From positions 1 through 25,860 of the IMG/VR virus record IMGVR_UViG_3300042564_003941: a stretch of 25,860 nucleotides of DNA; one strand, given 5' to 3'. This stretch comes from a virus. The first letter of the stretch is position 1; each line of letters opens with the position of its first letter. Positions 6,746 through 21,023 of this stretch are shown here, in pieces. The translations under genes were made by a program, and so were the position numbers. The notes under the pieces were generated by a model, which searched no databases, had not been told where the DNA came from, and worked only from the letters and a program-made list of their open reading frames with translations.

Positions 6746-7089
6746 TACTTGTTATATCCAACAGTTTCTCTGGCAATATCGTCATGATCAAATTCTGCCC
6801 AATATAATTCAAAAGCAACGCAGTCAGTGACCGCTTCAAATTGATGGTATTCACCAGGAGCAACTTTTGTATATTGTCCTTCCTTAAGCAATGTCTCATC
6901 GACTAGGTCATAATTATTTTTCCAAACACGAATAATCATCTCACCTTTTTCGACAAAGAACCCATTCCATTTAAATTGATGTTTGTGTTTTGAACACACG
7001 CCACCAGCTGTAGCTTCAATACGATGGAATTCTAATACACCGTTAGCTTCTAACAATTCCGTTTGCCCCCACACTTTGCCTGCTTTCAT
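6745..7089 (-). CDS. Single-domain cupin (sugar-binding/isomerase-like), 114 aa
   Basis: The first cupin motif is visible as SKHKHQFKWNGFFVEKGEMII (two His, the E and the G of the GX5HXH..E..G pattern). The second is PGEYHQFEAVTDCVAFELY. The start VWGQTELLEANGVLEFHRIEA recalls the cupin half of type II phosphomannose isomerases. It is probably an isomerase, epimerase or sugar-binding protein. ATG 7089 is preceded by AAAAAGGA at a good distance, and a late-type promoter motif lies at 7116-7123. It is the first gene of the run of overlapping genes down to position 511. Confidence 0.8.
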   Translation of the reverse strand: MKAGKVWGQTELLEANGVLEFHRIEATAGGVCSKHKHQFKWNGFFVEKGEMIIRVWKNNYDLVDETLLKEGQYTKVAPGEYHQFEAVTDCVAFELYWAEFDHDDIARETVGYNK

Positions 7090-7115
7090 ACAATGTCCTT
7101 TTTAAGTCTGCGCAA

Positions 7116-7123
7116 TATTTATT
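7116..7123 (-). promoter_or_regulatory. Late-promoter-like motif AATAAATA before the cupin operon
   Basis: On the minus strand the sequence is AATAAATA, one mismatch from the T4 late motif. Initiation near 7110 gives a 21-nt leader that contains AAGGA about 7-9 nt before the cupin ATG. It diverges from the exact late motif at 7144-7151. Confidence 0.45.
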
Positions 7124-7143
7124 TAAGTATAATAACCTATCAA

Positions 7144-7151
7144 TATAAATA
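7144..7151 (+). promoter_or_regulatory. T4-type late promoter, exact TATAAATA
   Basis: This exact late motif lies in the 69-bp gap between the cupin and the plus-strand glycosyltransferase. Predicted initiation near 7157 is only 2 nt before the ATG at 7159, and there is no Shine-Dalgarno sequence, so the transcript would be essentially leaderless. Confidence 0.65.
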
Positions 7152-7158
7152 TTGCACT

Positions 7159-7857
7159 ATGACACCATTAAACCTAGAAACAAAAGTTAATAAGAACGGA
7201 TTTCTTCTCACCTGCGACACAAAGTATTTTAATACTTGGGCAAAACCTCTGTTTTTTTCTATAAAAGATAATTGTCCGTGGGCACATATACATTTTCATA
7301 TCTTTGATCCAAACCTTGGAGATTTAGAATGGGCTGTTGCCCACGGATGCACTACTAGCAGTGAAATAACTCCTGCTGAATTCACTAAAGATCTAACAAC
7401 AAAAGCAACATATTGGTGTTTAGCTAGATATTTTAGAGTTCCTGAAATATATGAAGATACTGCTCTTGTAATTAATTTAGATGTAGACAGTGTAATGGTA
7501 AATCCATTATCTGAAAAAGAATTTATAAAAGATCTAAAAACAACCTGGATACCCACTAGAGGAAAAGGTGGACAAATAAAAAGTCTAGCAAGTGCTATGG
7601 GATTTGGTGCAGATAACGGTCGTTATATTTTAGCAAAACGATTTAAAGAAAAATTAAAAGAAGATTTATTTTGGGGTATTGATCAATCAACGCTCAACGA
7701 AATGCTTGCGGCAAACGAAATAACAAAAATGGACCTTCGATACACCGATTACAAATTTGGAAAAAAGGGTCCGTCATATTCGTGGACCGGAAAGGGTGAC
7801 AGAGTTCACTCTGAAATATTTGTAAAAGAAATAAACAAATATAAAAACAGAATTTAA
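7159..7857 (+). CDS. GT-A glycosyltransferase, 232 aa
   Basis: NGFLLTCDTKYFNTWAKPLFFSI at the N-terminus, YWCLARYFRVPEIYED, and the metal-binding VINLDVDSVMV (D108-V-D110) identify a nucleotide-sugar-dependent GT-A enzyme, probably close to GT8. A C-terminal WTGKGDRVHSE may contribute the second metal or donor-binding His. The frame extends upstream to 7063, but the late promoter at 7144-7151 and divergence from the cupin favour ATG 7159. It is a lone plus-strand gene whose stop overlaps that of the convergent SDR gene by 4 nt. The exact late promoter suggests late expression, as for virion or surface decoration. Confidence 0.85.
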   Translation: MTPLNLETKVNKNGFLLTCDTKYFNTWAKPLFFSIKDNCPWAHIHFHIFDPNLGDLEWAVAHGCTTSSEITPAEFTKDLTTKATYWCLARYFRVPEIYEDTALVINLDVDSVMVNPLSEKEFIKDLKTTWIPTRGKGGQIKSLASAMGFGADNGRYILAKRFKEKLKEDLFWGIDQSTLNEMLAANEITKMDLRYTDYKFGKKGPSYSWTGKGDRVHSEIFVKEINKYKNRI

Positions 7858-11248: not shown

Positions 11249-12699
11249 ATATTGACCTTTGTTATTGCGAAGGGGTACTTCGCTTCTTTGTAAAATTTCT
11301 TACGTTCCGTAAGATGTCTTTTAGCATATTTGCAGGCGCTGGTGATATCCCAGATCTCAACGTGGTCCTTGTCTTCGGCTCTCCGAATACCCCGTCCAAT
11401 GCTTTGTATAACTCGAACAAAGCTCTTTCCGGGCTCAATAAGAACCAGATTAAAAATACGGGGGATATTAATACCCACAGCGGCCACACCGTAAGTCGCC
11501 ACAATAATCTTATCAGAACTAGTTTTAATTTCATCATATTCTTCTTTTCTATCAGTTAATTTAACTGCACCACTGATGAACACACTGTCTGGCAACATTG
11601 CAGTCAATTTGTCGCCTGTGTCGATTCTATTCACTAGCACAAGAGTATTGCCGGACAGAGAAATTTCTTTGATTTTATTTCCTATCCAACTAATGCGATG
11701 ATCGTCAGTGACTAGAAAACTATATTCTTCTTGATAATTACGGAATACCTGCACGTCATTGGTTTGAAGAATATTGATTTGTAAATTGGCCAATACGCCT
11801 TTTTCTTGTAGGTCGTGTGCAGATACTTGATTAATCACTGGGCCTATACTGGCAAGAATACCTTGAAATTCCCAGGCTTCTTTAGGCACAGTACCTGTGA
11901 GCCCCCAGCGTATGGCACAGTTACTGAAATTCTGTGTCAGCAGTTTAGTTAGCACATCGGCCTTGGCCTGATGTACTTCGTCTATGATAATGGCTGCTAC
12001 ACCCTCAATAAATTCTGCCAAACTCAATGTAGCATTATCATAACTTTTCTTATCAAGTACGTTGAGACTTTGCCATGTACAAATAGTATGTGTCTTGCCT
12101 AATTCTTTTCTGTCTCCAAAATATACGCCAACATCTAGTCCAAGATTTCGATAATCTTCCTCAGTTTGTACCACTAGACTTTTGTTAGGTACGATAACCA
12201 TTGTGCGACCATAAGGTTCACACAAATGACTTAGTGTAGCAGTAGTAATGGTCTTGCCTGCACCTGTGGCTACTTCTTGCAAGGCCTGGGTGTTGGCTAG
12301 GAATTTGTTAACCACGTCAAACTGATAATCACGTAGCACAATAGGTGTGCCGGCTTCGGGATGACCTTTAGGCCAAGTCTTGCCTTGGTCTGCCCAGTAG
12401 TTTTCTGTGATAGGTTCGAATTCTATCTTGCTGTGTTGTCTTAGATCTTCTATGAGAATTTCATATCCTGCATCTTCTACTATGGGAAGAATTACATCCA
12501 GATGTGCAAGATATCCAGTACCACCAATACCAAAATAGGTTTTAGTTCCGTCCCATCTGCCTAGTTTGTAAGAAGGCATATGACGTGCGTAAGGCAAATC
12601 AAACTTTAATTTGTTGGCAATCTTTCGACGTGTTTCTACTGCAAGTCCTTCGAACTTGATATTTACTTCGTCTTTAATTATAAGTCTACAAGATGTCAA
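11245..12699 (-). CDS. uvsW: UvsW-like SF2 helicase (recombination / replication-fork helicase)
   Basis: The 484-aa protein has an N-terminal DNA-binding domain (residues 1-95, including MPSYKLGRWDGTKTYFG), a Q-like LRDYQ, Walker A ATGAGKT (144-150), motif II DEVH (240-243), motif III LTGT, and motif VI QSIGRGIRRAED near the C-terminus. UvsW in T4 (587 aa) unwinds R-loops and branched DNA, and moves T4 from origin- to recombination-dependent replication. The start is TTG 12699, overlapping the upstream gene by 14 nt; no ATG or GTG exists nearby, and the N-terminal domain would otherwise be cut. It sits between a putative partner gene and a conserved 168-aa gene. Confidence 0.92.
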   Translation of the reverse strand: MTSCRLIIKDEVNIKFEGLAVETRRKIANKLKFDLPYARHMPSYKLGRWDGTKTYFGIGGTGYLAHLDVILPIVEDAGYEILIEDLRQHSKIEFEPITENYWADQGKTWPKGHPEAGTPIVLRDYQFDVVNKFLANTQALQEVATGAGKTITTATLSHLCEPYGRTMVIVPNKSLVVQTEEDYRNLGLDVGVYFGDRKELGKTHTICTWQSLNVLDKKSYDNATLSLAEFIEGVAAIIIDEVHQAKADVLTKLLTQNFSNCAIRWGLTGTVPKEAWEFQGILASIGPVINQVSAHDLQEKGVLANLQINILQTNDVQVFRNYQEEYSFLVTDDHRISWIGNKIKEISLSGNTLVLVNRIDTGDKLTAMLPDSVFISGAVKLTDRKEEYDEIKTSSDKIIVATYGVAAVGINIPRIFNLVLIEPGKSFVRVIQSIGRGIRRAEDKDHVEIWDITSACKYAKRHLTERKKFYKEAKYPFAITKVNI

Positions 12700-13882
12700 A
12701 TGATGTTGCCCCTTTGGGTAGCGTTGGTTTTATTTCTCCTAGATAAATTACACAAGGATGACTCGACATCCAGTCGTTTACATAGGTATTAGGATTGATA
12801 TATAAGTTATTTGTAACAATAAGTTTAACATCAATATTATCTTTAAACAACCACTTAGACGGTTTATGTTCAAATATAAAAATTTTTCCGTCTTCAACAG
12901 GTCCGCCAAGACCGTTGTCTTTTATCCATTGATTTAATCCACTGTTAGATTCTTTACTTTCCCTAAAACAAATTCTAATATCAGACCTTGAGATTTGGTA
13001 TTTTTCAGAATCTTTTATAAAGTTTTCTAACCACTGTTCTTTGTCGGATGCACGATCTAACACTATACAAATTTTGCCATCTATTTTTTTATATACATCA
13101 AACAATTTTTCGTTGCTATCAATCCAAAAAATATTATTGCTACTTGATGCAATTTTTTCCACAATTTCTTGTGATTTTGAAACAAGTTTTAAAGGAAACT
13201 GCATGGCTTTTGCTAACAACATATCGTGGTAGATATCACCAGTTGAATTTTTTTCAAAGTATGCATCTGCATATTCATTGCTGTTTATCAAGACCAATTG
13301 ATTTTCAAAAATTGTACTGTGAGGTAGAAAATCTTCCTGATTGGCCCATATTTCCTCCACCAATTCTACTGTCTCTAAAAAAGAATCATCTATTTCAAAA
13401 TTATGTTTTTGTAAAAATTCATACAGAGCCACAACGTTGATTTCTGAAAATTTTACTTCTCTCAGTTTTTTCTCTTGGTTCCATTTTGAATGTCTAAAAT
13501 GGTCTTTTTCTGTTGAAAATTCTCGGTCAAATGTTTCTTTCATACTAAACGGGAATTTTAAAAATATCAAAAGTTCTCCAGTCTCATCTTTTTCTACAAA
13601 TATTTTTTTGGTAAGATCTAGTATTCTAAATTCATTTTTCCATACTGGATTTTCAATTTGATCAGAATAGTCAAAATTATATTTTTGTGCTATGACCTTG
13701 TGTTTTTTCAGTATTTTTACAATCAGCCCAGCCTGACTCTGAGTCAACAGTGATCCAGATGATATTAAAGAATAAAAATTATAAGTAGCACTCTGATCTT
13801 GACCTGTCAAGGCAAAGCCGTGGCGTACCATAAGATTGTAAAATTCTAAAAAGATGTCTTCAGTGTATTGATAAGGTACCAT
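12686..13882 (-). CDS. Protein upstream of uvsW, possibly a degenerate SF2 helicase with a HARP-like segment, 398 aa
   Basis: The frame extends to 14002 but would overlap the GT-B-like gene; ATG 13882 (MVPYQYTEDIF) is the likely start, and a consensus promoter is placed just before it. The region LLIFLKFPFSMKETFDREF, followed by a W and R-rich stretch, resembles the FPY...W motif of the HARP domain of annealing helicases such as SMARCAL1. Later, KICIVLDRASDKEQWLENF looks like helicase motif Ia, and the C-terminus resembles an SF2 first lobe, but Walker A and DExH are absent. This is a weak-similarity inference. Overlap with uvsW suggests that the two proteins work together. If not a degenerate helicase, it is simply a conserved protein of unknown fold. 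Confidence 0.7.
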   Translation of the reverse strand: MVPYQYTEDIFLEFYNLMVRHGFALTGQDQSATYNFYSLISSGSLLTQSQAGLIVKILKKHKVIAQKYNFDYSDQIENPVWKNEFRILDLTKKIFVEKDETGELLIFLKFPFSMKETFDREFSTEKDHFRHSKWNQEKKLREVKFSEINVVALYEFLQKHNFEIDDSFLETVELVEEIWANQEDFLPHSTIFENQLVLINSNEYADAYFEKNSTGDIYHDMLLAKAMQFPLKLVSKSQEIVEKIASSSNNIFWIDSNEKLFDVYKKIDGKICIVLDRASDKEQWLENFIKDSEKYQISRSDIRICFRESKESNSGLNQWIKDNGLGGPVEDGKIFIFEHKPSKWLFKDNIDVKLIVTNNLYINPNTYVNDWMSSHPCVIYLGEIKPTLPKGATSFDIL

Positions 13883-13888
13883 TGTTAT

Positions 13889-13917
13889 ATTATAACACCG
13901 ATAATTTTGAAAATCAA
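13889..13917 (-). promoter_or_regulatory. Sigma70-type promoter TTGATT-17-TATAAT before the uvsW operon
   Basis: On the minus strand, TTGATT (13917-13912) is separated by 17 nt from a perfect TATAAT (13894-13889). The predicted start of transcription, about 7 nt further, falls at or next to ATG 13882, so the mRNA would be leaderless or nearly so. The -35 box overlaps the stop of the upstream GT-B-like gene. This would allow host polymerase to transcribe the uvsW operon separately from the glycan module. Confidence 0.6.
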
Positions 13918-14768
13918 CTATGTGCGTGTAATAGATGCTCGATGTGTGTTTGTAATCTAAGAATTGGCGTTCCTTGACCAATTTCTTCCACGGTCCACTC
14001 ACTATGACAGAGTTTTAAAAACCAGTCATCTCGATCGGGCAGTTGAGGATTTTCTAAATTTTTCCATTTTTCACTGACTGGATGTGCCAAACTTGAACTA
14101 TCACAGATTACAGGAACTCCTTTTATAGCTGCCTGCACAGCCGGTCCACTGTTATGATTTATCACACAATGATAATTGTAATTGATATCAAAGTCATCGT
14201 AGCTGTTTTGTATTTTTCTTGGCACTTCAATCACAGCGTCTACGAATTTCTCAAGAATCTGCGATCTTGGGTGGGGTCTAACCACGATTTTTCTATCACT
14301 GTGTTTCTTTATTTCGAGAATGGTTTGTTTGACCCACTGTTCCATTGATGGTTGATCACACCATTGCAAACTAGCACTGTGTTGACAGGCAATTAGAATT
14401 TCTTGCCTTCGATGATGATTTACAGGTTGGAGTGAAACACCTAAAATTTGTGGTCTTGTTAGATCTAAATCTTGTTGATTGCCAAATATACCAAAATTGT
14501 TGATATGATTTAGGCCTACTCGCCAGGTCACTCCTCTTTTTAAATTTCCTACCTCAATAATTATAATAGGTCGGTGATTTTTTGTAAAATTTTCATAGAT
14601 GGACTTATTTGGCCGCATTCTCCCCTGCCATAACACGGACCAAATCACACCTACATCTTCATCCTTGTTCACTACTGAATGTCCTAGCTTTTTTAAGCCT
14701 GCAGAAAAGGCTGCAAACACAGGAGTGCTGTTTAATGCTCCATTTTCTTGATAAATTCTAAAACGCAT
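13914..14768 (-). CDS. GT-B-like putative glycosyltransferase, array member A, 284 aa
   Basis: The C-terminal half carries the family pattern KIVVRPHPRSQ, then NHNSGPAVQAAIKGVPVI (the donor-binding E/A-x-x-x-x-G-x-P region of capsule-type GT-B enzymes such as KpsC/KpsS or CDP-glycerol transferases), and the array's C-terminal box WFLKLCHSEWTVEEIGQG. The N-terminal half (IYQENGALNSTPVFAAFSAGLKKLGHSVV) looks like a GT-B acceptor lobe. It is the most distant member of the five-gene array and is separated from the others by the plus-strand island 14798-16035. ATG 14768 is 29 nt from the divergent plus-strand gene. The substrate is unknown. Confidence 0.75.
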   Translation of the reverse strand: MRFRIYQENGALNSTPVFAAFSAGLKKLGHSVVNKDEDVGVIWSVLWQGRMRPNKSIYENFTKNHRPIIIIEVGNLKRGVTWRVGLNHINNFGIFGNQQDLDLTRPQILGVSLQPVNHHRRQEILIACQHSASLQWCDQPSMEQWVKQTILEIKKHSDRKIVVRPHPRSQILEKFVDAVIEVPRKIQNSYDDFDINYNYHCVINHNSGPAVQAAIKGVPVICDSSSLAHPVSEKWKNLENPQLPDRDDWFLKLCHSEWTVEEIGQGTPILRLQTHIEHLLHAHS

Positions 14769-14777
14769 TTTGTTTGA

Positions 14778-14785
14778 AATAAATA
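14778..14785 (+). promoter_or_regulatory. Late-promoter-like motif AATAAATA before the 14798-16035 island
   Basis: This is one mismatch from TATAAATA. Initiation near 14791 gives only about 7 nt before ATG 14798 (or 16 nt before ATG 14807). It lies in the 29-bp gap between divergent genes and is the only promoter-like element seen for the two plus-strand genes. Confidence 0.4.
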
Positions 14786-14797
14786 TATGAGTATTTA

Positions 14798-15205
14798 ATG
14801 AAACCTATGAACAAATTTATTAAAAGAATTAGTAAATCAAAAAAAAATATTAGAAATATTCTAGTAGTAGGTACCGGTTGGGAGAAATTACCGAATCTTT
14901 GCGATGTTTTCCCTAGCGTGTTTATAATTTCTACCGGCCCGCAGGACTTTCGAAGAAAAAATCTCATATATAAAGAAAGTTTTGATCAAATAGAAACACT
15001 ACCAGACATAGACGCCATTATAATGGATAGAGACCAAGATATACATGTGTCTAAATTGCTTCCTTTGCTTAATAAATATCAATCGGTTATACTAGTTCAG
15101 GGTGTTGAGTTGTTTGCCAAAACAGAATACAAGTTTTTGAAAACATACGGATATGCTGTGGTAGAAATGTTTGGAGATTCACACCTATGGAAAAAAATAA
15201 ATTGA
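14798..15205 (+). CDS. Rossmann-like hypothetical protein, 135 aa
   Basis: The start is ATG 14798 or 14807 (MKPMNKF); neither has a clear Shine-Dalgarno sequence. After a basic N-terminus, IRNILVVGTGWEKLPNLCDVF resembles strand 1 and the glycine-rich turn of a Rossmann fold. VFIISTGPQDF, DIDAIIMDRDQDIHVSKLL and SVILVQGVEL follow as alternating strands and helices. A truncated methyltransferase-like or nucleotide-binding domain is possible, but no catalytic motif can be named. It overlaps the following glycosyltransferase gene by 19 nt, so the pair is likely to be co-translated. Confidence 0.7.
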   Translation: MKPMNKFIKRISKSKKNIRNILVVGTGWEKLPNLCDVFPSVFIISTGPQDFRRKNLIYKESFDQIETLPDIDAIIMDRDQDIHVSKLLPLLNKYQSVILVQGVELFAKTEYKFLKTYGYAVVEMFGDSHLWKKIN

Positions 15206-16035
15206 AAATTGCAGTCGTGACCACCTTTCACGGAGAAGGTCTAGAAAAATATGCACAGAAGATGATTGATACTTTTTGTGTAAATTGGCCCCAAGAAGTA
15301 ATTTTACACATTTATCCAGAAGCGTGTAATCCTGCTATACGTGACCACAATCATGTTACACTGAAACGCCTAGAAGAAATTCCAGAGCTAATGGCATTCA
15401 AAAATCAATGGAAAGATGTTCCTAAAGCTAACGGTGATGTTAGTGCTGACCCAATCCGAAGCAAAAGAAAAGATTCAGGCAAAGGATTTAAATGGCATGC
15501 TGTTAGATTTGCACATAAAGTTTATTCAATATTTGATTGTGCCAAAGAAACAGATGCAGATATATTGATATGGATGGATGCTGATACTATTTGTCACAGT
15601 CCTATTACTATGCAGGACTTGTACAGAATGATTCCTGCAGACTCAGAACTTTGTTATCTTGGAAGAAAAGGCAAATATTCAGAGTGTGGCTTATACTCTA
15701 TGAATTTACGATCTGCAAATGTACAGGCATTCTTAAAAGAATTTCAAAGATTTTATGATCAGGCAGAACAAGGAATTTTTCAGTTAGCCGAATGGCATGA
15801 CAGTTTTGTGTTTGATGCTGTACGTATGAAATTTCCGCAGATGAGGCAACTAGATTGGGCTGCTCATCTACATGACATTCGTCCTAGATTAGGAAGTTCT
15901 CAAGGTGAAGGGCATCCATTGATCAACAGCGAATGGGGTGCTTGGTTAGATCATCTCAAAGGCGGTAGGAAAAATCTTGGTAGAAGTAAACGTGAAGATC
16001 TTAAAGTTCATCGAACTGAAGCATACTGGCGTTAG
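15187..16035 (+). CDS. GT-A glycosyltransferase, 282 aa
   Basis: LKIAVVTTFHGEGLEKYAQ at the N-terminus and DILIWMDADTICHSPI (D131-A-D133, the metal-binding DxD) identify a GT-A enzyme. LCYLGRKGKYSECGLYSMN and WHDSFVFDAV are typical of the acceptor side in this group. DIRPRLGSSQGEGHPLINSEWGAW and a basic C-terminus (GGRKNLGRSKRED) complete it. From memory, similar proteins with VTTFH.AGLEKY starts occur in marine phages. The start overlaps the preceding gene, and the stop overlaps that of the convergent array member B by 4 nt. It probably adds a sugar in the same glycan pathway as the minus-strand module. Confidence 0.87.
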   Translation: MEKNKLKIAVVTTFHGEGLEKYAQKMIDTFCVNWPQEVILHIYPEACNPAIRDHNHVTLKRLEEIPELMAFKNQWKDVPKANGDVSADPIRSKRKDSGKGFKWHAVRFAHKVYSIFDCAKETDADILIWMDADTICHSPITMQDLYRMIPADSELCYLGRKGKYSECGLYSMNLRSANVQAFLKEFQRFYDQAEQGIFQLAEWHDSFVFDAVRMKFPQMRQLDWAAHLHDIRPRLGSSQGEGHPLINSEWGAWLDHLKGGRKNLGRSKREDLKVHRTEAYWR

Positions 16036-16955
16036 ATATATTGTTTAAAAAATTTCCAAGCGGCTCCGGATCTTAGTTCATCAAAATTCCAATGACACAT
16101 ACTAATTTTTTCAATCCATGCCTGCCGTTCTAACATAACTGGATTTTCTATAGCACTAAGGTTAGTATTGGCCACAGCTACCGTTTGACTATGTTGTGGC
16201 ATTGGATCAGTTAAAAAAATTGGAATTCCTTCAATAACACTGGCTACACTAGGACTACTATTGTAAACCACTGTGGCCCAGGCGTTAACTAAATCTTCTT
16301 TAAGATTAGCGTTCACGCTCAGTGATACTGATTTGTGATTTATTTTTAAATAGCTTCCAATTTTTTTATCTCCGGGATGAGCCCTAACAATTATAGGTCG
16401 TTGACTATATTTCCTTATTTCTAAAATAGTTGAGTTCATCCATTGTATAACATCTAGTCCTCTCATGCTCCATCCACCGTTTCTCTGTAAGCAGATTAGT
16501 ATATGATTGCCTTGTGTTCTCCAAGGCTTTAAACTAATATCTAAATCCTTGCTGATCTGTTGCCATCGAGCGGGATTGGTATCTCTATCAAAATAAAATC
16601 CGGTGGTTGGAAATACTCCGTCAAAACTATATCTTAAATAGTGCAGTGGGTTAGACTTGTCTGCGTATAAAAATAAATTGCTATCTACAATTAACGATCT
16701 TTTGTTTGTTGACTTTTGAAGATTCACTGCACTTTGTCTCAGTTGTAGATGCGGTGCAGATTTACCGTGTTCATGAACAAATCCCTGTATCAGTGCTACA
16801 TCACAAGGAATTGCATTCATTCCAGTATGTGCTATTGCAGTATCACCTGACGCAATAACTCCTTGACAAAAATAGTTTAATATCTGCGGCTTCTCCATAT
16901 TATGATTATTGGGTGGTATTCCAGCATAATATGCCACAGCAGTTATATTAGACAC
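16032..16955 (-). CDS. GT-B-like putative glycosyltransferase, array member B, 307 aa
   Basis: The frame is open to ATG 16991, which would overlap the upstream gene by 44 nt. GTG 16955 gives an 8-nt overlap and has AAGGA about 8 nt upstream, so it is preferred. Motifs are HILICLQRNGGW, RPIIVRAHPGDKK, VVYNSSPSVASVIEGIPIFL and the C-terminal box WIEKISMCHWNFDELRSGAAW. These match members A and C to E in order and spacing. The VRAHPG motif is close to the RPHP seen in capsule GT-B enzymes. The N-terminal lobe is diverged. Sugar donor and acceptor are unknown. Confidence 0.75.
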   Translation of the reverse strand: MSNITAVAYYAGIPPNNHNMEKPQILNYFCQGVIASGDTAIAHTGMNAIPCDVALIQGFVHEHGKSAPHLQLRQSAVNLQKSTNKRSLIVDSNLFLYADKSNPLHYLRYSFDGVFPTTGFYFDRDTNPARWQQISKDLDISLKPWRTQGNHILICLQRNGGWSMRGLDVIQWMNSTILEIRKYSQRPIIVRAHPGDKKIGSYLKINHKSVSLSVNANLKEDLVNAWATVVYNSSPSVASVIEGIPIFLTDPMPQHSQTVAVANTNLSAIENPVMLERQAWIEKISMCHWNFDELRSGAAWKFFKQYI

Positions 16956-18042
16956 TGTGATATTCCTTGATAATGCTAAGTGCAGTACCATCTATTAGTT
17001 CATCATATGTAAATTGACAATAGCTGAGCCATGCTAGCCAATCTCCTAGTGGTCCATAATATAAATCGTTGACCTGTGCAAGATTGTTTCTAGTTACAGA
17101 ATTACTCACGTGCTTGTTGAGAGTGATAGCAGGTATACCAGCCCAAATAGATTCCACAGCACTGTTTGAATTGATGCTGACTGTGCAATAGTAGCCTCCA
17201 TTCAACAATGTTTGATAAAGACTGGTGCGTGTTTTCTTATTGATTTTAGATCTAATTTCTATGGGTCGGTCCGTGTATTTTTTTAATTCAGCTATGACAG
17301 ATTCGGTCCAAGATTTTGCTTCTACGTGCATGATACCAGCAGCAAATTCCCCCGGCTCAACAATCAATATTTTTTTACCCTCTTTGCGCCAAGGTCTAGG
17401 AAACTCTGCAAAATTTTTCAATCTATCTGTAGGTGAAATAAATTGATTATTAAAGTGCAGGTGATTCCTTGTGAGTCTGTGCCATTTTTTATTGGGTTCA
17501 ATAAAATTCGTGTATCCGCTATCTATAAACCAAAACGGAAGACTGTTATCAATTTTATCTACAATAATATGTTCATTGCCTACGGTGTTTCTTAACAGGC
17601 AATCTTCTCTACTATCTATGAAATCTTTTCGCCTAATCATAGTTGATGTGGGATCTATTTGTTGCCCAACAGATTTGATAAAATATTGTCGATCACTATT
17701 CATATAGGCGTCGATGATATTTTTGTCACCTAATTTTTCTATTACATATTCTGCTTGTTTATGTACTTGACTAAAATAATTTTTTTTGTAATTTTCTAAA
17801 ACCGTGTTAACTTTACTACGCCATTCTGTAGCATCTGCAGAAACTCCCCTCAACAGTTTTTCTTTAAACTTATCACGAAATTTTTCAATGTCAAATTTAT
17901 GATGATTTTTTTTCTCAAGAATAAAATTTATAGCTTCTGCAGTTTTACGCTCATTTAACTCTATGTGTAAGCAATGATCTTTTAGATCTATAAGACTTAT
18001 AAGATAGTGCGCAAGTTCTTTGTCGTTTACTAATAATTTCAT
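16948..18042 (-). CDS. GT-B-like putative glycosyltransferase with an extra N-terminal region, array member C, 364 aa
   Basis: ATG 18042 is in an ATGA overlap with the stop of member D; the TTG at 18060 is less likely. Residues from about 170 contain FWFIDSGYTN, KKWHRLTRNHLHF, KKILIVEPGEFAAG, RPIEIRSK, CTVSINSNSAVESIWAGIPAITL and the box WLAWLSYCQFTYDELIDGTAL, in the same order as members D and E. The first 170 residues or so are a lysine-rich, helical region without a match in the other members. It may be an extra domain for protein contacts or a divergent acceptor lobe. This member lacks His in the HP motif. Confidence 0.75.
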   Translation of the reverse strand: MKLLVNDKELAHYLISLIDLKDHCLHIELNERKTAEAINFILEKKNHHKFDIEKFRDKFKEKLLRGVSADATEWRSKVNTVLENYKKNYFSQVHKQAEYVIEKLGDKNIIDAYMNSDRQYFIKSVGQQIDPTSTMIRRKDFIDSREDCLLRNTVGNEHIIVDKIDNSLPFWFIDSGYTNFIEPNKKWHRLTRNHLHFNNQFISPTDRLKNFAEFPRPWRKEGKKILIVEPGEFAAGIMHVEAKSWTESVIAELKKYTDRPIEIRSKINKKTRTSLYQTLLNGGYYCTVSINSNSAVESIWAGIPAITLNKHVSNSVTRNNLAQVNDLYYGPLGDWLAWLSYCQFTYDELIDGTALSIIKEYHSV

Positions 18043-18809
18043 TGATTTAATATTTTCCAAGCTGTGCCGTTGGCAATTTCTTCATGAGTAAATTGGCCGT
18101 AGGACAATGTCTTACACATCTTAGTTATGTCTTCTAAGAGTGGTCTATGGGGATTTTTAAGGGTGGACAAATCAGTAGATGCCAATGTGCTAGCCGCGCA
18201 CGGAACTGAAACAAATGCAGGTATACCGTATAATACTGATTCTAAACTTGCAATGCTATTAAAAGAGACTGTGGCGTATACTCCTGTTTCAAAAGCAGAA
18301 TAGATAGAGTATCCGTGACCTCTTTCACTTCGTGTTCCTTTCACTCTAATTTCAATTGGCAAATTAGAATAAGTTTTAATTTGTTCGGTAGTTTCTTCCA
18401 CCCAAGTGTCGCAATCAATGTCATAGTATCTACAGGCTTTTGGATTAGGCAGAACTAGCAAAATTTTCTTGCTATGATTTTTCCATCCTTGCCATACTAG
18501 TCTGGGATCTTGTTTTTGTAATTGTTCCCATCTATTAGAATCTACATTTCTGGGTAATGTATGTTGCAGGTCGTTTTTAACTACTCTATGCCAGATTTTT
18601 TTTCCAGAAGTATTTCCCGGACTAGGAAAATTCCCCAAATAACCAGTATCTATATAATAGAAATCTCTTTGCGTTTTTTGGCATTCAACTATTTCGCTCT
18701 TGCTAGTTACTCCACGAACCACCATGGGTTTGGAAGATTCTTGCATTTTTGTTGTGCAATAATTATTTGAACCCTGTACTAACGATTCTTCTAAAGATAG
18801 TTCTTTCAT
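18039..18809 (-). CDS. GT-B-like putative glycosyltransferase, array member D, 256 aa
   Basis: FYYIDTGYLGNF, KIWHRVVKNDLQH, KILLVLPNPKACRYYDID, LPIEIRVKG, TVSFNSIASLESVLYGIPAFV and the C-terminal box LSYGQFTHEEIANGTAW are nearly parallel to member E, so the two are recent tandem paralogues. The donor-lobe signature (N-S-x-A-S-x-E-S-x-x-x-G-I-P) resembles that of capsule polysaccharide GT-B enzymes. At 256 aa the protein is short for a two-lobe GT-B enzyme (usually over 350), so the acceptor lobe is reduced. ATGA overlaps couple it to E and C. Confidence 0.78.
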   Translation of the reverse strand: MKELSLEESLVQGSNNYCTTKMQESSKPMVVRGVTSKSEIVECQKTQRDFYYIDTGYLGNFPSPGNTSGKKIWHRVVKNDLQHTLPRNVDSNRWEQLQKQDPRLVWQGWKNHSKKILLVLPNPKACRYYDIDCDTWVEETTEQIKTYSNLPIEIRVKGTRSERGHGYSIYSAFETGVYATVSFNSIASLESVLYGIPAFVSVPCAASTLASTDLSTLKNPHRPLLEDITKMCKTLSYGQFTHEEIANGTAWKILNQ

Positions 18810-19597
18810 TGTGTTAATAGTTCCATCGCCTTGCCGCTTTTTAATTCTGAATTGTGAAACTGTCCATAGGCTAGATGACAGCCCCAGGCATACAATTTAT
18901 CTTGATCAGGATAGTAAGGAGTTTGAATCTTACTAATATCTTGAAGACTTACCGGACTTGCTGCGTTTGTAGGAGCAAGAGTAAATGCTGGAATACCATG
19001 AAATATACTTTCTATTGCGGCAACACTATTGTACGTCACTAGAGCAAATACATCATTATCAAGCGCCTGCTGTAGTGTGTCTGTGACAATTCTATCTATT
19101 CTTTTAGGTGCTCGTTCTCTAACTACTATTGGTCTATCGGTATATTCTTTGATTTTTGCAACAGTTTCATTAACCCATTGATCCTTAGTAACTCCATAGA
19201 ATTTGCAAGGTTTTTCATCTGGTGCTGCAACTAATATTTTTCTTCCATCTTTTTTCCAGGGGAGAAAAGTTTTATTAAATTTTTTAAAACGATCGTCGGG
19301 CCTCGAAATAATCTCACTATGTTGCAGATCATTTTTTACTATGCGATGCCACAGTTTCCATCCGTTGGGATTGGATGCAGTTCTTTCATTGCCAAAATAC
19401 CCTGTGTCCATATAATAAAATGTACGCCCGTCTTTCCAGCAACGTTTCATTATTTTATGTTTAAGGATTCCTCTTAGGATAATTGGATCTTGAGAATCTG
19501 CGTAAACAAAATCTTCTGTTGATATTGGTGCAGTCTTGCATCCCAGGGCAAACAAATTAATGTACTCGTCCTCTCCGTCTTTACTTAGAAAAATCAT
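18806..19597 (-). CDS. GT-B-like putative glycosyltransferase, array member E, 263 aa
   Basis: The motifs FYYMDTGYFGNER, KLWHRIVKNDLQH, KILVAAPDEKPCKFYGV, RPIVVRERAPKR, LVTYNSVAAIESIFHGIPAFTL and the box LAYGQFHNSELKSGKAM follow in the same order as in member D. The E-S-x-x-x-G-I-P segment and the upstream N-S are probably nucleotide-sugar-binding, by analogy with capsule GT-B enzymes. It starts in an ATGA overlap with the GT-A gene upstream. As with the other members, activity is inferred and a non-enzymatic role is not excluded. Confidence 0.78.
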   Translation of the reverse strand: MIFLSKDGEDEYINLFALGCKTAPISTEDFVYADSQDPIILRGILKHKIMKRCWKDGRTFYYMDTGYFGNERTASNPNGWKLWHRIVKNDLQHSEIISRPDDRFKKFNKTFLPWKKDGRKILVAAPDEKPCKFYGVTKDQWVNETVAKIKEYTDRPIVVRERAPKRIDRIVTDTLQQALDNDVFALVTYNSVAAIESIFHGIPAFTLAPTNAASPVSLQDISKIQTPYYPDQDKLYAWGCHLAYGQFHNSELKSGKAMELLTQ

Positions 19598-20271
19598 AGA
19601 TTGCGCTGTAGACAGTAATCGGTATAAATGCGTTCACGGTGCCATTCATCTCCCATTGGAGTAGTAGCAAAGTCGTGGAAGCTAGGTGTTCCTAGTGTAT
19701 AGTGCAATAATTTTGCATCTTGGTTTGCACCAAATTCATCGGGTAGCCAGTTCCATACCTTAGGCAATTCCCCAACTAACTCATCAGCGAGCCAAGTAAA
19801 TCTATGAAGTTGGGCGCCTGTAGCAGTTTCAATAAATTCAGGTGTTACTACTTTATTTGCGGCATGACCACAATTCCAAAGAATAACACTTGACCAATTC
19901 TTTCGAGGATAGTTTTCGTTTTTAGCGCCAAGGTACTTTTCTGTCATCTTGGTTTTGTAATCGTGTTTAACTACCATTACTGCTTTACTGTCGTCTCTAA
20001 GAGCCCATAATTTTTCAATATCATCTCGAACTAACATATCGCCATCCATAAAGATTGCCCATCCCTTGTATTCCATTAGATGTGGAACAAGGAAACGACT
20101 GTAGATAAACTGATTACTACCGTCGGTATGCGTTTCTTGATAATCTTGCATGTTTTTTAATGCAAGTGGTGTAATCGAAATTGGTTTACTAGAATGCCTA
20201 ATTATACTGTTAGCGCATACATGATATGCGATAGCTTCTCGATGATCGTAACCGATAAAAATATTAATCAT
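19594..20271 (-). CDS. GT-A glycosyltransferase (GT8-like), 225 aa
   Basis: The frame is open to 20298, but ATG 20271 (MINIFIGYDHREAIAYHV) makes an ATGA overlap with the upstream fusion gene and is the start. IFIGYDHREAIAYHVCANSI, FIYSRFLVPHLM, WAIFMDGDMLVRDD (D76-G-D78 metal site), SSVILWNCGH and LLHYTLGTP near the C-terminus match glycosyltransferases of the GT8-like group seen in phages and in LPS gene clusters. It stands between the cytidylyltransferase fusion and the GT-B-like array, and is translationally coupled to both. Confidence 0.9.
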   Translation of the reverse strand: MINIFIGYDHREAIAYHVCANSIIRHSSKPISITPLALKNMQDYQETHTDGSNQFIYSRFLVPHLMEYKGWAIFMDGDMLVRDDIEKLWALRDDSKAVMVVKHDYKTKMTEKYLGAKNENYPRKNWSSVILWNCGHAANKVVTPEFIETATGAQLHRFTWLADELVGELPKVWNWLPDEFGANQDAKLLHYTLGTPSFHDFATTPMGDEWHRERIYTDYCLQRNL

Positions 20272-21023
20272 TTTCTTTCTATGTCCTCTTCTACACAATT
20301 TTCACCATATTGAATTTCAATAACTCGCAAGGGTTGATCTGTCTCATTGCATAACTTATGCCATTGAGTTGTATTAATATGTATGTGTTGATGTTGTGTA
20401 TATTCGCCTAACAGATCCATGTCTGAGCTGCGATCTATAGTATAGACTGTGGCGGTGCCTTCGGCCACAAACCAATGTTCTGCACGGTCTTGATGACGTT
20501 GCATACTGAGGCAGGTCTTGGGATTGACCGTGAGTTCTTTGAGTTTGACATGATTGTTAACTTCATGCAACACTCGATAGTATCCCCAAGACCGGCCTGT
20601 CTTGGGTGCTCGCCATTCATTAAGTATCCAAGAACTACTATTGGCTTTGTTCTCTCCGCCGACTCCGAACACAAACTCTACATCTTCAAAGACCATTTCA
20701 GGAATGTTATCTTTGGTTCTGTCACCGCCGTTAGCAAATACTATTTTATCTCTAGGAAAAAGTTCCTGTACTTGTCTAATAGCATCTATAGCACTATCAT
20801 CATTGTCGGTAAACTCTATTACTTTGTGTACTTGATGTAAGTTTTCAATAATAGCTTTGCGTTCAGCGGCAGGCATAAATGCTCTGCCTTTTTTACGTGT
20901 GAGCCAAGCATCGCTGTTAATGCCTACAATCAAAAGATTGCCTAATTGTTTTGCGGCTTTAAAATATTCAATATGACCACTGTGTAAGGGGTCAAATCCA
21001 CCTGTAACTAATATTATTTTCAT
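20268..21023 (-). CDS. Fusion of a cytidylyltransferase-like domain and a type II phosphomannose-isomerase cupin, 251 aa
   Basis: Residues 1-125 form a nucleotidyltransferase of the RfaE/TagD type: VTGGFDPLHSGHIEYF holds the HxGH site (H14-S-G-H17), followed by GINSDAW and ANGGDR. Residues 140-250 are the cupin of ManC/type II isomerases: RSWGYYRVLHE, VNPKTCLSMQRHQDRAEHW (metal-binding His/Gln/His), VAEGTATVY, and a C-terminal IEIQYGENCVEEDIER. In ManC the cupin follows a guanylyltransferase of another fold, so this pairing is unusual. It may activate a sugar or polyol phosphate and isomerise it. ATG 21023 follows directly after a 16-nt palindrome; a GATAAATA motif inside it could act as a late promoter. 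Confidence 0.9.
   Translation of the reverse strand: MKIILVTGGFDPLHSGHIEYFKAAKQLGNLLIVGINSDAWLTRKKGRAFMPAAERKAIIENLHQVHKVIEFTDNDDSAIDAIRQVQELFPRDKIVFANGGDRTKDNIPEMVFEDVEFVFGVGGENKANSSSWILNEWRAPKTGRSWGYYRVLHEVNNHVKLKELTVNPKTCLSMQRHQDRAEHWFVAEGTATVYTIDRSSDMDLLGEYTQHQHIHINTTQWHKLCNETDQPLRVIEIQYGENCVEEDIERK

Follow-up and report, generated by a model that had tools for sequence, protein, structure and literature searches.

We analysed a 25,860-base stretch of DNA from an uncultivated giant virus of bacteria, a single IMG/VR record (IMGVR_UViG_3300042564_003941; the whole stretch is called the window below), and focused on five minus-strand genes, A to E, which an earlier note had described as paralogous GT-B-like proteins. 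The five are members of the retaining 3-deoxy-D-manno-oct-2-ulosonic acid (Kdo) transferase clan (GT99/GT107/GT140) by fold, and they are not Kdo transferases by the motif that defines that activity. We propose, with evenly divided confidence, that A–E are divergent, non-interchangeable glycosyltransferases which, with their partner genes, form one phage glycan-assembly module. Its product is most likely a short oligosaccharide attached to proteins of the phage's own virion.

Five homologous proteins related to capsule-type transferases

We found all five open reading frames (ORFs) where the earlier note had placed them. They are listed here in operon order with their active-site positions.

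E, 18806..19597, minus strand: Kdo-transferase-like GT-B protein, 263 aa (AlphaFold2 model, Foldseek, motif tally); general-base slot D64; QXXXD slot P126..P130; R160-x-R162 in place of (K/R)XHP; S191, E196; C-terminal E251/G255.
D, 18039..18809, minus strand: paralogue of E, 256 aa (BLASTP, motif tally); base slot D54; nucleophile slot A125; R155-x-K157.
C, 16948..18042, minus strand: paralogue with an N-terminal extension that is conserved, 364 aa when read from ATG 18042; base slot D174; nucleophile slot A234; R264-x-K266.
B, 16032..16955, minus strand: paralogue, likely GTG start at 16955, ORF open from 16991 (AlphaFold2 model, Foldseek); base slot D103; Q169; nucleophile slot G173; R203-x-H205-P (numbering of the 319-aa ORF).
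A, 13914..14768, minus strand: paralogue, 284 aa (BLASTP A–B 3e-15, motif tally); base slot E72; Q129; nucleophile slot S133; R164-x-H166-P.

Orthologues and gene junctions indicate that C likely starts at ATG 18042 rather than TTG 18060, and that B likely starts at GTG 16955, which gives an 8-bp overlap with C. All-against-all BLASTP, with E-values computed for a search space of these five proteins only, linked D–E (3e-54, 36% identity), C–E (8e-35), C–D (7e-25), B–C (3e-16), A–B (3e-15), A–E (2e-10) and A–D (1e-6). Judged from these sequence comparisons, A–E are true homologues, well above chance. A profile built from the five and their nearest named-phage relatives picked up over 600 ORFs across related loci.

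The motifs named in the earlier note are real and near-invariant: DTGY/DSGY, the R of WHR, (I/V)(R), NS......G(I/V)P and the C-terminal (F/W)...E(L/I/M)..G box. One detail required correction, as the DTGY segment reads EVGN in A and DSNL in B. The N-terminal extension of C is likewise confirmed, and its length is conserved: among 64 distinct C orthologues, trimmed proteins most often measured 363–370 aa. Existing libraries were little help with these proteins. Pfam, NCBIfam and PHROGs gave nothing above cut-off for any of the five, none matched PF05159 (Capsule_synth) above the Pfam gathering score, and family profiles searched against the sequences of solved structures returned nothing meaningful. 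The best library trace was a weak match to DUF6716, a "putative glycosyltransferase", in 28 of 70 family members; weak Pfam matches to zinc finger, Rap1 and Ral-binding families were judged to be chance.

We modelled B and E with AlphaFold2 (predicted local distance difference test score, pLDDT, 92.4 and 95.4; predicted template modelling score, pTM, 0.88 and 0.90, respectively) and compared the models with the PDB using Foldseek. The first 26 matches of the B model were WbbB (GT99), KpsC (GT107) and KrkA (GT140), with WbbB at the top. All 26 matches of the E model below 1e-3 were GT99/GT107/GT140 enzymes, with KrkA among the high matches (probability 1.00 for both models; E-values to 1e-8 for B and 2.7e-6 for E). 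Profile–profile comparison aligned the phage family with KpsC/KpsS-type PF05159 members from alphaproteobacteria (94.7–95.8% probability, E-value ~1e-8), and ten other window families compared with the same profiles as a control scored below 2%. The alignment paired the phage Asp/Glu-x-Gly with EDG, Q with the Q of QXXXD, and R-x-HP with K-x-HP.

The two models and the profile comparison thus agree with the earlier proposal of GT-B proteins related to capsule-type enzymes. The five did not fall into separate known families, and B and E share one fold neighbourhood. We consider homology and clan membership highly likely; the clan fold is predicted directly for B and E by the models, and would extend to A, C and D by homology. 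When searched against BFVD, the B model also matched at least four proteins of Tetraselmis virus 1, a giant algal virus, which suggests that a eukaryotic virus has a paralogous set of its own.

The catalytic nucleophile is absent from all array clades

In characterised clan enzymes, the Asp of QXXXD is the covalent nucleophile, a Glu is the general base, and (K/R)XHP binds cytidine monophosphate (CMP) (PMC9587256, PMC10148158, PMC12887879). We tallied these motifs over 224 sequences from clades A–E and a sixth clade, F, that occurs in some related phages. The nucleophile Asp was present in 0/224 sequences, and its slot was never D or E: we observed S in A (36/36), G in B (48/48), A or S in C (40 and 3 sequences), A, S or T in D, P in E (42/44), and I, K or V in F. 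The Gln of QXXXD was kept only in A and B. The base slot was E in A (36/36) and D in B (48/48), C (43/43), D (40/41) and E (44/44). This slot is the DTGY segment of the earlier note and aligns with the EDG motif of KpsC relatives. Its spacing points to equivalence with Glu66 of KpsC: base and nucleophile lie 93–97 residues apart in two-module relatives, and 94 residues separate Glu66 from Asp160 in E. coli KpsC.

The HP of (K/R)XHP was invariant (100%) in A and B. Lys or Arg replaces the His in C, D, E and F, with the Pro often retained in F. The ribose-position Glu was invariant or nearly so in C, D, E and F and lost in A and B, and the Arg of R-x-H and the Ser of NS were near-invariant in C, D and E. 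Both a podovirus copy (ct7QV12) and the 320-aa SAR11 homologues carry intact QXXXD, RXHP and NS..E; active sites in the family thus range from intact to altered. We rejected the whole array as active Kdo transferases because its members do not carry QXXXD. With the nucleophile absent and the base kept, we infer one-step transfer, and the direction of change was probably loss of the nucleophile rather than gain.

Among known systems, KpsC (GT107, the capsule linker beta-Kdo transferase, PF05159) resembles the array proteins in its GT-B fold match, its profile alignment (~95%), an acid at the general-base position and the NS motif, and A and B only also share K/R-x-HP. A further shared point is that paralogous modules forming different linkages serve a single pathway; KpsC itself has two. 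Unlike KpsC, all five array proteins lack the QXXXD nucleophile, and C, D and E lack HP; the phage proteins are single-module (~255–365 aa), occur in an array of up to six, and lie below PF05159 detection, and no CMP-sugar synthetase was found in the related contigs. WbbB (GT99) and KrkA (GT140) are the top Foldseek match of B and among the high matches of E, respectively; the phage copies differ from them in lacking the nucleophile Asp, which KrkA keeps in QTLND, its (K/R)XHP motif being a variant (PMC12887879).

The array belongs to a conserved gene module

Four partner genes accompany the array in the window.

19594..20271, minus strand: GT8 glycosyltransferase, which comes first among the operon's glycosyltransferases and overlaps E at ATGA; PF01501 1.2e-8.
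20268..21023, minus strand: NTP-transferase/cupin, a cytidylyltransferase-like domain (PF01467, 4e-14) fused to a mannose-6-phosphate-isomerase-type cupin (PF01050, 1e-21).
15187..16035, plus strand: GT-A-like protein with a DAD motif, convergent; weak PF00535.
14798..15205, plus strand: small partner gene just upstream of the GT-A-like gene; no family in libraries; present in 42/46 complete islands.

The operon runs NTP-transferase/cupin, GT8, E, D, C, B, with A nearby. ATGA overlaps link the genes from NTP-transferase/cupin through GT8, E and D to C. The NTP-transferase/cupin is a probable source of activated sugar.

We defined complete islands as distinct loci with both UvsY and UvsW in view (n = 46). 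They came from scans that kept the 80 best loci per query, and the counts are thus biased towards close relatives of E and B. Each island carried 2–6 family members: E-D-C-B-A in 38 (26 with these five alone, 12 with an additional inverted F between B and A), an additional forward F in one, and 2–4 copies in the remainder. GT8, NTP-transferase/cupin and the convergent GT-A gene were each present in 46/46. The minimal module is therefore GT8, NTP-transferase/cupin and GT-A together with E and B, with the exception of one locus without E. No gene for a flippase or for exporting polysaccharide was recognised within the module's conserved part. Further downstream of the island lie sugar-nucleotide genes (epimerase, DegT aminotransferase, dehydratase, FkbM and other methyltransferases) that differ from phage to phage.

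The array copies are orthologues under purifying selection

We examined whether the array is a recent lineage-specific expansion that allows glycan switching against receptors or antibodies; the earlier note had put forward a lineage-specific expansion, with switching as one option. In the tree, A, B, C, D and E each form their own clade across many phages. Median identity to the window copy within clades was 56–76%, compared to 36% between D and E. The ratio of non-synonymous to synonymous substitution rates (dN/dS) within clades was 0.05–0.10 in all five and 0.05–0.08 in C, D and E; the array is under purifying selection. We found no tandem repeats in the array region, and the four A or T runs of 8–9 between 13.8 and 21.1 kb are ordinary at ~36% GC. 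D and E, described as close tandem copies, are indeed adjacent paralogues, but they are only 36% identical with synonymous sites near saturation, and we did not use their pairwise dN/dS value for that reason.

Copy number does vary among related phages, from two to six with C, D, A and F present or absent, which favours expansion. However, the array is not a recent expansion, because every copy has a separate orthologous clade that recurs in dozens of phages in the same order. Switching is not supported either, because dN/dS is low, repeats are lacking, and the genes overlap in a set order instead of being shuffled. These data largely refute recent expansion for antigenic or receptor switching, which we regard as extremely improbable. 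The suggestion that each copy adds a different residue fared better: each copy has its own active site, constant across all its orthologues, and this is consistent with a different residue or linkage per copy. The copies probably have dedicated, sequential roles.

Relatives occur in named phages, a prophage and SAR11 genomes

Profile searches placed the family in Mosig EXVC030M (Pelagibacter; Mosig_00187/00185), the Caulobacter jumbo phages CcrColossus (gp127/gp128) and CcrSC (gp170/gp171), and an unannotated ORF of ct7QV12. Each phage has two copies, except ct7QV12 with one, rather than an array of five or six, and all are annotated as hypothetical or are unannotated. The ct7QV12 copy keeps the full catalytic signature. 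Like the window module, Mosig and the Caulobacter phages (GT8-like gp129 in CcrColossus) have a GT8 gene beside the family members, as do the SAR11 genomes L206 and L207, another alphaproteobacterium (L232) and a prophage (L233). Homologues of the GT-A-like partner occur in Mosig, ct7QV12 and L206/L207. A sulfotransferase gene lies between the two family members of Mosig (L006:14321-14938), hinting at a sulfated glycan, and a sulfotransferase is also near the family gene in one SAR11 locus.

Three of these clusters lie among virion genes. The prophage cluster (L233:5059-9225) comprises two family genes, a GT9-like gene, an FkbM methyltransferase and a GT8-like gene, and has the major capsid gene on one side and head-tail connector/tail-tube genes on the other. 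The ct7QV12 cluster precedes and adjoins the terminase, and the Caulobacter cluster comes after a large tail-protein gene.

Among cellular genomes, we detected a family member in 65/162 Pelagibacterales genomes, 6/385 sampled Alphaproteobacteria and 4/398 sampled Pseudomonadota, the latter two samples each containing the seed genome. The SAR11 homologues differ from the window array in being single or double chromosomal genes, and the 320-aa type keeps QXXXD and R-x-HP. L206 and L207 have the order GT8, family, GT-A, family. The SAR11 single cell SAG-MED31 carries a B orthologue with 51% identity to window B (L164:7992-8900), which sits between guaA and other housekeeping genes with no further module gene nearby. 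This gene may reflect phage–host transfer or a single-cell assembly artefact; it suggests gene exchange with SAR11 and is no proof of host. Separately, many SAR11 genomes (L181, L184-L203, L205, L211-L220) carry a ~255-aa family member without Q, nucleophile Asp or HP, near purH in an island with tetratricopeptide repeat (TPR)-sulfotransferase and 2-oxoglutarate (2OG)-oxygenase-like genes, the flanks of which vary by genome.

A proposed virion glycan and its alternatives

We propose the following pathway. The NTP-transferase/cupin would make or edit the activated sugar, and GT8 and the GT-A protein would add early residues. The minimal pair E and B, then D, C, A and F, would add or branch further residues. 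The Asp/Glu base would activate the acceptor directly without a nucleophile, in a one-step, probably inverting transfer. Donors would probably be CMP-sugars for A and B, in which HP is kept, and possibly another donor for C, D and E, in which Lys/Arg stands for His. The finished glycan would decorate the virion. The main support for virion glycosylation is the position of the prophage, ct7QV12 and Caulobacter clusters among virion genes. We consider the virion a better candidate than the host surface or DNA, with confidence standing at about the midpoint.

Several observations weigh against this proposal. TM-scores to solved enzymes were only 0.36–0.56 (root-mean-square deviation 7–12 Å over whole chains). 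The window module lies between the recombination genes uvsW and uvsY, not by structural genes, and SAR11 cells carry the family without phage nearby, which suits a cell-surface role. The CMP-sugar synthetase family PF02348 had no match in 16 related contigs, so any CMP-sugar donor would need to be supplied by the host. Some copies could also be non-catalytic partners. We infer more tentatively that, with the nucleophile lost and the base kept in every phage copy, retaining double-displacement (covalent-adduct) enzymes became one-step inverting enzymes with new donors, and that five or six dedicated enzymes, which share a gene pool with SAR11 surface-glycan loci, build a virus-specific virion glycan; this fuller account is doubtful.

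The same enzymes might instead modify host surface polysaccharide during infection and so block the adsorption of competing phages (superinfection exclusion). SAR11 chromosomes carry genes related to the family and to the GT8 and GT-A partners, and the characterised clan members make capsule or O-antigen (PMC9587256, PMC10148158, PMC12887879). Pelagimyophage GT8-rich clusters and the lipopolysaccharide-type clusters of jumbo cyanophages resemble the window in that T4-like phages combine sugar-nucleotide enzymes with glycosyltransferases, and the published proposal for those clusters is host O-antigen modification (PMC7029224, PMC7824862). One large-phage paper names virion glycosylation as an option. 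In the parts consulted, none of these accounts describes a paralogous Kdo-transferase-like array or its clan. The prophage, podovirus and Caulobacter phage clusters among virion genes argue against a host-surface target, as does the lack of a recognised export or flippase gene, and we judge it somewhat unlikely, though the strongest competitor of the virion.

On a further reading, which we think less likely still, C, D and E, and F as well, would be pseudo-enzymes: they would bind acceptor or donor while A and B carry out the actual transfer, in a scaffolded complex with few active members. Their lack of the QXXXD Asp and of HP fits this, the overlapping operon suggests coupled expression, and E and B co-occur as a minimal pair. 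However, four positions hardly vary in C, D and E, where dN/dS is 0.05–0.08: the base acid, the R-x-H Arg, the NS Ser and the ribose-position Glu. This suggests that a nucleotide site is still used. SAR11 cells also maintain a stand-alone gene in which Q, the nucleophile Asp and HP are likewise missing. Glycosyltransferases encoded by viruses commonly act on DNA, and hypermodification of phage DNA against host nucleases, as by the T4 alpha- and beta-glucosyltransferases, would suit a T4-like phage with the module between DNA-recombination genes. We regard this as highly improbable: the thymidylate synthase/hydroxymethylase family PF00303 was not found in 16 related contigs (fragments of up to 238 kb), the fold neighbours are polysaccharide enzymes with no DNA glucosyltransferase among the matches listed, and homologues are present in cells.

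Glycosyltransferase clusters are common in aquatic phages. Our analysis defines one conserved, testable module: GT8, NTP-transferase/cupin and GT-A with 2–6 Kdo-transferase-like proteins. Since the cultured phages Mosig and CcrColossus carry smaller versions, virion and host-surface targets can be distinguished directly by experiment. Members with and without the covalent nucleophile also open the origin of an unusual retaining mechanism to experiment, and an unannotated gene in ~40% of sampled SAR11 genomes now has a function class.

Phage context and other window features

The window encodes the T4-like phage proteins UvsX, a gp32-like protein and a UvsW-like helicase; UvsY was called from position and size, and the array island sits between the UvsY and UvsW genes. 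UvsX is nearest to jumbo phages of the CBB/GAP32/Atu_ph07 kind. The phage collection held no near relative or near-identical genome, and related contigs reached 238 kb. Cyanophage identity was dropped, as PF00124 was lacking. A late-promoter scan (TATAAATA) gave 76 matches compared to 69 expected, at chance level, and sigma-70-like sites were also close to their chance count.

We also observed, on the opposite strand (7063-7857, plus), a GT-A-like protein that bears a DVD motif, has no Pfam match and was found in 0/79 related viral loci of at least 12 kb. Finally, a 438-aa family-less protein (12686-14002) adjoins UvsW in most related loci, with a median identity across them of 44%, compared to 82% for UvsW.

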